From the NCBI GenBank assembly GCA_036374135.1, contig DASUUK010000033.1, positions 1 through 54,697 on the forward strand: a stretch of 54,697 nt of DNA, given 5' to 3'. Position numbers and translations under genes: made by a program. Source of the DNA: Euzebyales bacterium. Lineage in GTDB: Bacteria > Actinomycetota > Nitriliruptoria > Euzebyales > JAHELV01. The notes beneath the pieces were generated by a model. That model did no database searches. It saw nothing but the letters and a program-made list of their open reading frames with translations, and was not told the origin of the DNA. Shown piece by piece: positions 30,652 through 34,097 of this stretch; within the stretch, counting starts at the first letter, position 1, and each line of letters begins with the position of its first letter.

Positions 30652-30713
30652 CCGCCCCGCCACGACCTCGCCGACGCCACCGGCCCGCCCGAACCGACAC
30701 CCGAATCGACACC

Positions 30714-30807
30714 CACCTCGTGATTTGACAACCACCTTCAGGCACAGATCACGAGGTGGTTGTCAAATGACGGCACAACGCGGTGAAATGACAACCACCA
30801 CGTGATC
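30714..30807. repeat. Left cluster of a ~25-bp repeat family beside the DUF559-type gene
   Basis: Three copies of a unit close to GTSAWWTGACAACCACCWCGTGATC: a partial forward copy at 30720-30738, an inverted copy at 30747-30771 and a forward copy at 30783-30807. The first two form a perfect 15-bp stem (30723-30737 with 30754-30768) with a 16-base loop. They fill the space between coxG and the end of the gene at 30824. Confidence 0.9.
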
Positions 30808-30823
30808 GGTGCACGTGAGGGTG

Positions 30824-31813
30824 TCAGGCTGCGTGCGCTCGCGCGACCTCGGTGGCCATTCCCGAAGGGTCGTGCACGACGTCCTGCCAGACGAACCGCA
30901 ACACCCGTATGCCGAGCAGCTGAAGGCGCCGGTCCGTTGAGCGATCCAGCCGTGCGCGGTCATGTCGGGTGTGGAATCGGAGGCCGTCGAACTCGACGAC
31001 CAGCCCGACGTCGCGATAGAGAAGGTCGACCTCGCGGATGAGTCCCTGCGCGTCGTGCAACGCGACATTCCATTCACCGGGCGGCAGTCCGTGCGCTCGG
31101 AGCGCCGCAGCAGCGCGTCGCTCGAGCACGCTCCGTAACCGCTGCGCCCCGTCGGGATGGGTGGCCGTGGCGATGGCTCGCACACCGGCCCGGCCGTTCG
31201 ACATCGCGTCCGCGGTGAGGTGGATGGACCGCCACAGCGACGGCGAGGCGCTACAGCTGTCCAACATCGCGAGCGACGACCACGCATCCAGCTCGGTGGA
31301 ACAGTCGGCGATGGTCCGTGGGACGGACGTGGTTGGAACCGACCCGACCCGGACGATGTGCCGGGGAGGCAGGTACCTGGTCCGATGGATCACGACGTCG
31401 TCGATCGGTCGTCGCCTCCGAGCGGTCTCGACGAGCACATGCGCCTGCCGGTGCCGCGGGGCCTCGAGGCCGTGGAGCTCGGCCGCCGTCCAGCGGCACG
31501 CAACAGAACCGTCGCCGGCGATCAGCACCGCGCGCATCGCTCTCGCTTGGATGTCGCCACGCCTTCCGGGAAGAGCGACCACGCCGCGCGCGACACGGTC
31601 GAACACGCCACGTTCCACGCGTCGTGCGATCTGGTCGCGCGACAGTCCCAGGTTCAGGAGCTGGCCGACGCGCGCATGACCATGCTGGCGATTCATCAGC
31701 TCGATCGCGGCGGCATCGGCGGAGTGTCTGCTCACGTCCTCAGGGTGGTCGAAACCGCGCCACGCGTGTGTTGCGTCGCCGATCTGCCTGTGGATGTCCG
31801 ACGCGCGAATCAC
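30824..31813 (-). CDS. AbiEi-antitoxin-like/DUF559 (Vsr-like nuclease fold) protein
   Basis: A 329-aa protein in two parts. The N-terminal part ([21 protein letters not shown] then [27 protein letters not shown]) is the winged-helix AbiEi-like domain of type IV antitoxins. The C-terminal part ([22 protein letters not shown], then [23 protein letters not shown]) is a DUF559 domain related to very-short-patch-repair endonucleases, with plausible metal ligands in VDLL and VVEFDG. Such two-part genes are frequent in actinomycetes and poorly characterised. The longest start is GTG 31813, which lies inside a flanking repeat and has no Shine-Dalgarno; ATG 31696 (residue 40) is an alternative. No toxin gene is adjacent. 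Confidence 0.8.
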
Positions 31814-31932
31814 GAGGTGGATGACATTTCACGTGGATACGCCGGCATCGGGCAACCACCCACGCTGGTGCTCGACCATCCTGCCAAACGACGACCACCA
31901 TCGGAGCGCGAAGGTGGTCGTCGTTTCACGAG
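31808..31932. repeat. Right cluster of the ~25-bp repeat family
   Basis: An inverted copy at 31808-31832 (containing the GTG start of the DUF559-type gene), a forward copy at 31883-31900 and an inverted copy at 31911-31932. The last two form a perfect 14-bp stem (AAACGACGACCACC, 31886-31899, with 31913-31926) and a 13-base loop. They differ from the left copies mainly by compensated transitions (TGACAACC to CGACGACC). Degenerate GAGGTGG/GTTGTCG pieces continue to about 31977. Confidence 0.85.
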
Positions 31933-32020
31933 GTGGGGGCGTGTTGTCGAGGTGGGGTCTGTTGTCGGGGTGGTGGCAGGAGGGTGGGGCTGGGCGGGAG
32001 CCGGGGGGTCGGGGCGCACC

Positions 32021-32036
32021 TAGGATTGGGCCGATG
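32021..32036 (+). promoter_or_regulatory. Leaderless-type promoter -10 and ATG start of uvrB
   Basis: TAGGAT (32021-32026) stands seven bases before ATG 32034. The sequence CCTAGGATTGG is identical to that at moaA. No ribosome-binding site and no LexA-type GAAC-N4-GTTC box were seen. Confidence 0.6.
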
Positions 32037-34097
32037 AGCATGACGAAGGCGCGGACCGAGGGGCGGTTCGAGGTCGTCAGCGAGTTCGAGCCCGCCGGCG
32101 ACCAGCCGCGGGCGGTCGAAGGCGTCGCGCGGGCGATCGAGGCGGGCGAGACCGACACGGTGCTGCTCGGGGTGACGGGCTCGGGCAAGACGTACACGGC
32201 CAGCAAGATCGTCGAGGCGGTCCAGAAGCCGACGCTGGTCATGGCGCCCAACAAGACCCTGGCCGCCCAGCTCGCCAACGAGTTCAAGGAGTTCTTCCCG
32301 CACAACGCGGTCGAGTACTTCGTCAGCTACTACGACTACTACCAGCCCGAGGCGTACATCCCGTCGTCGGACACCTACATCGAGAAGGACTCGTCGATCA
32401 ACGACGAGATCGAGCGGTTGCGCCACCGCGCGACGATGGCGTTGCTGACCCGCCGGGACGTCCTGATCGTCGCCAGCGTGTCGTGCATCTTCGGTCTGGG
32501 ATCACCCGACGAGTACGAGAAGCACGTGCTGGCGCTGCGGCGCGACGAGGACGTCGACATGGACGGCGTGTTGCGCAAGCTGGTCGACCTGCAGTACGAG
32601 CGCAACGACCTGAACTTCGTCCGCGGCAAGTTCCGCCGGCGGGGCGACACGCTCGAGGTCTTCCCGGCCGACTCCGAGCTGGCGTTCCGCATCGAGTTCT
32701 TCGGCGACACCGTGGACCGCATCACGCGCCTGAACCCCGTGACCGGCGAACTCGTCAGCGAGGTCGACGAGGCGTGGATCTTCCCGAACAGCCACTACGT
32801 CGCCGGCGCCGAGCGCATGAAGCGCGCCATCTCGACGATCGAGGCCGAGCTGGCGGAGCGCCTCGCCGAGCTCGAGGCCGAGCAGAAGCTGCTCGAGGCG
32901 CAGCGGTTGCGCATGCGCACCAGCTACGACCTCGAGATGATGCGCGAGATCGGCTTCTGCTCCGGCATCGAGAACTACTCGCGCCACATCGACGGGCGCA
33001 GCCCGGGTGAGGCGCCGCACACGCTGCTCGATTACTTCCCCGACGACTTCCTGTGCGTCATCGACGAGTCACACGTCACCAACCCGCAGATCGGTGGCAT
33101 GTACGAGGGCGACATGTCGCGCAAGCGGGTGCTGGTCGAGCACGGCTTCCGTCTCCCGAGCGCCTGCGACAACCGCCCGCTGACGTTCGAGGAGTTCCGC
33201 GAGCGCGTCCCGCAGACCCTGCATGTCTCGGCGACGCCGGGGTCGTTCGAGCGTCGCGTCTCGACGACCGTCGTCGAGCAGGTCATCCGCCCGACCGGCC
33301 TGGTCGACCCCGAGGTCGTCATCCGGCCGACCAGGGGCCAGATCGACGATCTGATCGGTGAGATCCGCCGGCGCGCCGACGACGACGAGCGCGTCCTGAT
33401 CACCACGCTCACCAAGAAGATGGCCGAGGACCTGACCGACTACCTCCTCGAATCGGGTCTGCGGGTCCGCTACCTGCACTCCAACATCGACACGGTGCAG
33501 CGCATCGAGATCCTCCGCGAGCTGCGGCTGGGCGAGTTCGACGCGCTGGTCGGCATCAACCTGCTGCGCGAGGGCCTGGATCTGCCGGAGGTCTCGCTCG
33601 TCGCGATCCTCGACGCCGACAAGGAGGGGTTCCTGCGGTCGGAGACGTCGCTGATCCAGACGATCGGGCGTGCGGCGCGCAACGTGAAGGGTCAGGTCGT
33701 CATGTACGCCGACGAGCTGACCGACTCGATGCGCCGGGCGTTGCACGAGACCAACCGGCGCCGTGAGCTGCAGCTGGACTACAACGCAGAGCACGACATC
33801 GACCCGCAGACGATCCGCAAGAAGGTCGGCGACATCATCCAGATCGCCCGCGCGGCGGAGGCGGGTCAGCCCTACGCGGCGGCGACGGCGCCGAACCGGC
33901 GCACCCGACGGGGTGACGGCGACGGGGTCGACGTGTCCGACCTGCCCAAGGCCGATCTCGCGAAGCTCATCCAGTCACTGACCGATGAGATGCACGATGC
34001 CGCATCGGATCTGAAGTTCGAGTACGCGGCGCGGCTCCGCGACGAGATCACCGAGCTGCGCCGCGAGCTGCGGGCGATGGAGGACGCGCTGCGCTGA
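32034..34097 (+). CDS. uvrB: UvrABC system protein B
   Basis: A 687-aa nucleotide excision repair helicase-like protein that verifies damage after loading by UvrA and recruits UvrC. It has Walker [12 protein letters not shown], the beta-hairpin region [34 protein letters not shown] (DEAD-box), later motifs LISTL-like [18 protein letters not shown] and [23 protein letters not shown], and a C-terminal UVR domain ([13 protein letters not shown]). Length is typical. The open frame extends upstream but the ATG at 32034 matches the family start and the -10 placement. Confidence 0.97.

Follow-up and report, generated by a model that had tools for sequence, protein, structure and literature searches.

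A predicted AbiEi–EDxHD nuclease gene bracketed by REPIN-like inverted-repeat elements in actinobacteria

Introduction

If a gene is bracketed on both sides by inverted repeats, do gene and repeats belong together, even when the encoded enzyme is not one of the transposases for which such pairings have been described? Many bacterial genomes contain extragenic palindromes, for which the RAYT transposases have been described as the dedicated enzyme family. According to PMC2817692, two inverted REP sequences always flank a RAYT gene and coevolve with it, and the presence of a RAYT correlates with the abundance of its cognate REPs; inverted REP doublets that form hairpins are described as REPINs (PMC3116915). 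The question is posed by a stretch of 54,697 nucleotides from a Euzebyales bacterium (genome G000), here called the window, in which several inverted repeats surround a gene with AbiEi_4 and DUF559 domains. An earlier note on this DNA had suggested a partnership of repeats and nuclease comparable to that of REPs and RAYTs, with self-regulation through the repeats as the simpler alternative.

Results

The six repeat copies that the earlier note had placed around the gene, i.e. 30720–30738 (+), 30747–30771 (−), 30783–30807 (+), 31808–31832 (−), 31883–31900 (+) and 31911–31932 (−), are all present in the window and pair into near-perfect stems. On the left, 30719–30737 pairs with 30754–30772 (95% complementary), and on the right 31886–31903 pairs with 31909–31926 (94%); the right stem departs from the left one by transitions that are matched on both arms, again as had been described. 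As single-stranded DNA, the stretches 30743–30811, 30716–30775 and 31880–31940 fold more stably than shuffled versions of themselves (z of −7.0, −5.8 and −5.9, respectively), and TGACAACCACC with up to two mismatches matches the window 28 times against 11.6 expected, a number reached by none of 100 shuffles.

The copies of a unit of about 25 bp proposed earlier are real, but the better unit is an element of about 69 bp with two inverted arms, accompanied by half elements. Its layout is GATCACGAGGTGGTTGTC – 25 nt – GACAACCACCACGTGATC, and the GGTGG...CCACC cores of its arms nearly always span 45 nt, as they do in 12 of 15 candidate facing pairs when spacing is left free (46, 63 and 40 nt in the remaining three). 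The element thus shows what characterizes a REPIN, namely two inverted arms that are separated by a fixed spacer and form a hairpin. An intact copy (30743..30811, +; arms 30747–30764 and 30790–30807, core span 45 nt) lies 12 bp downstream of the stop codon of the nuclease gene and is, by construction, the top match in the genome of the covariance model R1 introduced below. Beside it lies the left outer arm, a half element (CCCACCTCGTGATTTGACAACCACC, 30712..30738, +) whose core pairs with 30754–30772. Upstream of the gene there is a second 69-bp element with a worn right arm (31804..31872, +), and a third hairpin (31883..31932, +) has a 14-bp stem, AAACGACGACCACC / GGTGGTCGTCGTTT, with compensated transitions. 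Among the stretches folded from the window and from dispersed locations, five of six beat their shuffles; the three dispersed host elements in this set include two that do so (z −3.3 and −3.9) and one, L009, that folds no better than its shuffles (z −0.3).

The bracketed gene (30824..31735, −) matches AbiEi_4 (E 6e-8) and DUF559 (E 2e-4) in Pfam, and its neighbours by Pfam are a CoxG-like gene on the left and, on the right, uvrB (32034..34097, +), which anchors the orthologous site in the congeners G027, G028 and G029. It had been suggested that the repeat supplies the start codon of the gene. The longest reading frame does start inside a unit, at GTG 31813, but we rejected this codon in favour of GTG 31735, which lies outside the repeat and is probably the true start, because orthologs align from about there, and because the additional N-terminus of the longer reading has low pLDDT in the AlphaFold2 model (below 50 for residues 1–6 and 8–23). 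The motif TCCACAG is found 53–59 bp upstream of the likely start (31788..31794, −) and is enriched upstream of the gene family. It occurs, often as T[AGT]TCCACAG, upstream of 32 of 95 family genes, frequently about 60 bp before the estimated start, as compared with 10 of 629 control genes and, in downstream regions, 4 of 95; we take it to resemble a DnaA box.

In the AlphaFold2 model of the window protein (pLDDT 87.9), residues 28–227 match the AbiEi antitoxin 6y8q (Z 12.2, 3.9 Å, 184 residues), and residues 226–329 match the endonuclease-like protein 3hrl (Z 13.1, 1.8 Å, 89 residues), the homing endonuclease I-Bth0305I (3r3p; Z 12.5, 2.3 Å, 93 residues) and the mismatch endonuclease Vsr (1cw0; Z 10.9, 1.9 Å, 98 residues); Foldseek agrees with this assignment. 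Structure comparison thus bears out the earlier expectation of an AbiEi DNA-binding half and a Vsr-type nuclease half. The residues E231, D263, H281 and D290, which fit the EDxHD signature, co-occur in 25 of 27 family proteins, and the window protein, a predicted nuclease, has both the fold and the catalytic E-D-H-D residues of the EDxHD/Vsr superfamily. According to the model, the protein joins a winged-helix half of AbiEi type to a nuclease half of EDxHD/Vsr type, in which the catalytic residues are intact. PADLOC AbiEi profiles match all 27 of these family proteins, and Pfam assigns AbiEi_4 to 23, MTES_1575 to 16 and DUF559 to 15 of them.

BLAST and Pfam each find one such gene in the host genome, but it is not a single-copy gene, since a family profile finds at least three (15 of 87 candidates scored). 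A second AbiEi-nuclease gene of the host, L235 (G000:C74:82478-83389), is bracketed by a different inverted repeat. A plasmid or phage origin also finds little support: the nuclease gene had no phage match and, in plasmids, a single weak and partial one. The repeat stretch of a further genome, G022, had no plasmid match.

The repeat unit is dispersed in the host and two congeners (G000, G027 and G028). In the host genome (3.98 Mb), TGACAACCACC occurs nine times, its reversed control once. The covariance model R1, built from 11 host elements, has at least 37 strand-wise matches at no fewer than 19 places in G000 (including the 11 used to build it), at least 30 matches at 16 or more places in G027, and at least 22 at 15 or more places in G028, where one match (C155) is dissimilar to the element. 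In G029 four matches were detected, at two places that both lie beside its gene, in G021 11 weaker ones, and in the remaining 25 genomes 0–3 each (best E 9e-4); all these counts are lower bounds, for which 150 first-look candidates were scored per genome. Element edges are sharp, and most elements are extragenic: less than half of the element is coding in 12 of 13 cases in G000 outside the window, 12 of 12 in G027, 8 of 11 in G028, 14 of 17 in G022 and 10 of 12 in G124, according to a simple GC-frame gene call by which 7–13% of random positions are extragenic. The elements scored were 13 from the 17 places that G000 has outside the window, 12 from 16 in G027, 11 from 15 in G028, 17 from 33 G022 hits and 12 stretches in eight G124 regions; one of the two elements in the window is classed as coding.

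Compensatory change between the arms is likewise apparent, albeit not by every measure. In an alignment (A5) of 36 equal-length elements from G000, G027 and G028, in which related copies are non-independent, there are 41 double-change cells as compared with 18.7 in shuffles (none of 500 reaching this number) and 6–12 in slid controls, whereas two of five measures do not stand above the shuffles (pairs with double change, 6 versus 4.4, 43 of 500; further pair types, 13 versus 15). The constant spacing within A5 is in part due to the selection for equal length, by which elements with indels were omitted, as were those of G029.

The same organization, with other repeats, is found around other genes of the family. 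The three families chosen for a genome-wide pattern search (G022, G023 and G124) are all dispersed and lineage-specific. The pattern flanking the G022 gene (two mismatches) has 33 matches in G022, at about 20 loci, 13 in its congener G023 and none in 28 other genomes, with none for the reversed control. The corresponding G023 gene occupies the same site, adjoining nusB, with a diverged repeat whose stem is changed on both sides (GTGTCGGG/CCCGACAC in G023 vs GTGTCGCC/GGCGACAC in G022); its pattern (three mismatches) matches 36 times in G023 and 12 times in G022, with one or two matches in each of G011, G027 and G028. Each of the two genomes is thus richer in the version of the repeat that flanks its own gene copy. 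For the G124 gene, which lies outside the class, the flank pattern matches 27 times in G124 at about 12 loci, around ordinary genes too, with no match for the reversed control; 14 of 147 other genomes have a single match, where the reversed control gives 0–2. In all four families tested, dispersed extragenic palindromes therefore match the flanks of the gene. At one shared site, G022 has two copies where G023 has one. At another (L166 / L147, near position 1520), each genome has one element, immediately next to which G023 carries about 335 bp of additional DNA.

A relative of the window gene is present in 25 of the 30 genomes of the order, G000 included (BLAST), and the family in at least 62 of the 148 actinobacterial genomes with a completeness of 95% or more (threshold 1e-15). 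Many relatives have repeats on both sides, often hairpins, which can be direct or inverted with respect to each other and whose sequences vary from clade to clade and are mostly unrelated; the flanks inspected by eye were chosen loci, mainly repeat-rich or high-scoring ones. By local alignment of one flank to the other, 14 of 36 testable loci of the order, the window included, score higher than the 99th percentile of the 242 control ORFs; in a second set, 16 of 58 testable loci do so relative to 174 controls. The order set comprises 41 of 47 BLAST matches, window included, five of the 41 with cut flanks. The second set comprises 60 loci (two with cut flanks), taken mostly in E-value order from the best matches of a profile search, skipping those at contig ends, with the last few hand-picked to add genomes; one of them is the second G000 gene, and the rest lie outside the order. 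Pooled under a stricter gene caller, 35 of 92 family loci and 4 of 542 controls score at least 40, a cut that we chose. Six loci of the order with cut ends or an early stop (L075, L076, L090, L092, L094 and L102) are omitted from the pooled and motif analyses; of the 95 genes that remain, 92 have flanks of at least 100 bp.

The enrichment beside genes of this family is also found when both flanks are intergenic, i.e. at 31 of 71 family loci vs 2 of 164 controls (at least 60 bp) and at 27 of 49 vs 1 of 110 (at least 100 bp; Fisher 5e-16). The association of repeat and gene is firm across the order and the wider phylum. It is not universal, with 22 of the 49 loci below threshold, about half of the family without a detectable flanking repeat and, in G039, none of seven testable loci above the 95th percentile. 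Hairpins in the gene flanks are not generally stronger, since the strongest flank hairpin and that of other intergenic DNA have similar medians (−18.7 and −18.4 kcal/mol, P 0.30). Two loci, L104 (G020) and L261 (G058), carry near-identical perfect hairpins at both gene ends; the stop codon TGA of the former lies within the downstream hairpin, and in the latter the hairpin starts just past the stop.

The order element–gene–element beside uvrB is found in G000, G028 and G029, the G028 contig ending before the other neighbour of the gene. In G027, the same gap between the CoxG-like gene and uvrB contains a single intact element, with a sequence type of its own, and lacks the gene; the earlier note had predicted that such empty sites would be free of the repeat, but this one keeps a unit. 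A simple correlation between copy numbers of gene and repeat is contradicted by G027, which has at least 16 element places and, in an 87%-complete assembly, no close gene that we could find, and by G029, which has the gene and, at the sensitivity of R1, only the two flanking copies.

Discussion

Overall, the anatomy of this locus, the lineage-specific dispersal of the repeat families tested, the phylum-wide association, the covariation of the arms and the intact catalytic residues are best explained, in our view, if gene and repeats form a cognate pair, a reading that we favour with moderate confidence: the AbiEi half would recognize the elements, the nuclease half would cut them, and repair would spread or maintain what is a REPIN-like family of extragenic inverted-repeat elements. 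AbiEi is described as binding inverted repeats (PMC7319586), which offers a plausible route to recognition of the element arms. The EDxHD/Vsr-type half may then cut or nick the element, probably in its extruded hairpin form, and the cut ends could be repaired by copying or by recombination between elements, such that the family would be dispersed, homogenized and maintained, with copies kept around the gene itself. Recombination between the flanking copies would remove the gene and leave a solo element, which is possibly the case in G027, where we infer the direction of change.

By its layout, such a pair would work like a REP/REPIN–RAYT pair with an unrelated enzyme. In both, extragenic palindromes flank a gene (here an AbiEi–EDxHD gene), and they are dispersed, lineage-specific and often paired or arrayed. 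Joint divergence of gene and repeat may be a further parallel, with which the reciprocal richness in G022 and G023 agrees and the counts in G027 and G029 disagree. In contrast to the RAYT, a Y1/HUH (IS200/IS605-like) tyrosine transposase, the enzyme is an AbiEi–EDxHD nuclease of unrelated fold; flanking repeats are undetectable at part of these genes, although the window gene is flanked on both sides. Unlike REPs, which usually exceed 100 copies, the repeats occupy at least 19 places in G000 and have 33, 36 and 27 matches in G022, G023 and G124, respectively. RAYTs as the driving force of these repeats were rejected, since the Y1 transposase (PF01797, RAYT family) is absent from 29 of the 30 genomes of the order, some of them incomplete. 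The partnership suggested earlier thus stands as an association, in the comparison of flanks with controls, in dispersal, in arm covariation and in the absence of RAYTs, whereas binding, cutting, spreading or movement of the elements, and causality, are what we infer.

The occurrence of such gene-plus-repeat pairs in many actinobacteria suggests that repeats of this sort are spread or maintained by a second kind of enzyme, hitherto undescribed. More far-reaching, and put forward only tentatively, is the proposal that AbiEi–EDxHD nucleases are a second, independently evolved class of REP-mobilizing enzymes, which would cut their own hairpins and seed or homogenize actinobacterial REPIN-like families, their specificity turning over with the repeats. 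If so, the strategy would have arisen twice, here with a nuclease that shares the layout but is not homologous to RAYTs; a function could be assigned to a large group of AbiEi_4/DUF559 genes that so far lack one, the spread of such repeats could be tested in a new system, and there would be nucleases whose recognition sites are readable from the surrounding genome. In the open-access titles and beginnings of abstracts searched, we found no report that links DUF559 to palindromic repeats.

Alternatively, the repeats may be operator sites at which the AbiEi half represses its own gene, with the dispersed copies serving as a regulon or as decoys. The AbiEi domain in the protein and the copies upstream of the gene fit this idea, as does the description of AbiEi binding inverted repeats and regulating its own operon (PMC7319586). 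Nevertheless we consider it unlikely, since copies also follow the stop codon, form multi-copy arrays and occur at many gene-free loci, and since the upstream sequence common to many family members is a separate motif, TCCACAG; self-regulation, on its own, leaves the downstream and the many other extragenic copies unexplained.

More doubtful still is that the elements are spread by something else, e.g. an unknown transposase, and that homologous recombination inserts the gene, or retains it, between copies. The intact element without a gene in G027, at a site where congeners have element–gene–element, and the existence of G027 elements without a close gene speak for such a landing pad. Against it, the flanking repeat is a dispersed family in all three clades searched, G022 and G023 show reciprocal richness although their genes share one site, control genes are almost never so flanked, and a Y1 transposase, the type searched for, is missing from nearly all genomes of the order. 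That gene and repeats constitute an autonomous insertion element, with the dispersed copies as its MITEs, would account for repeats on both sides of the gene and for dispersed gene-free copies, but is very improbable given that flanking copies are direct as well as inverted, that the position of the gene is constant among related genomes (next to uvrB in G000, G028 and G029, next to nusB in G022 and G023) and that plasmids and phages contain next to no matches.

For the cognate pair that we favour, the separate halves of the protein have known relatives in other settings. The catalytic fold with its E, D, H and D residues is that of the EDxHD homing endonuclease I-Bth0305I and of Vsr, in contrast to which the gene studied here is free-standing with flanking repeats. 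The N-terminal part of about 200 residues shares fold and profile with AbiEi of the AbiE type IV toxin–antitoxin systems, which binds inverted repeats. Unlike in AbiE systems, a nuclease is fused at the C-terminus, repeats also occur downstream of the gene and genome-wide, and the AbiEii toxin (PF08843) was not found beside the genes, either in the window or at 100 loci, by a tblastn search of limited sensitivity with a single query, which recovered only its own source, L277. This locus (L277:1700-3231, G027:C72), in the congener without a close fusion gene, contains a classical AbiE pair, i.e. a stand-alone AbiEi (PF13338, PF09407) adjoining an AbiEii toxin (PF08843, E 7e-22).
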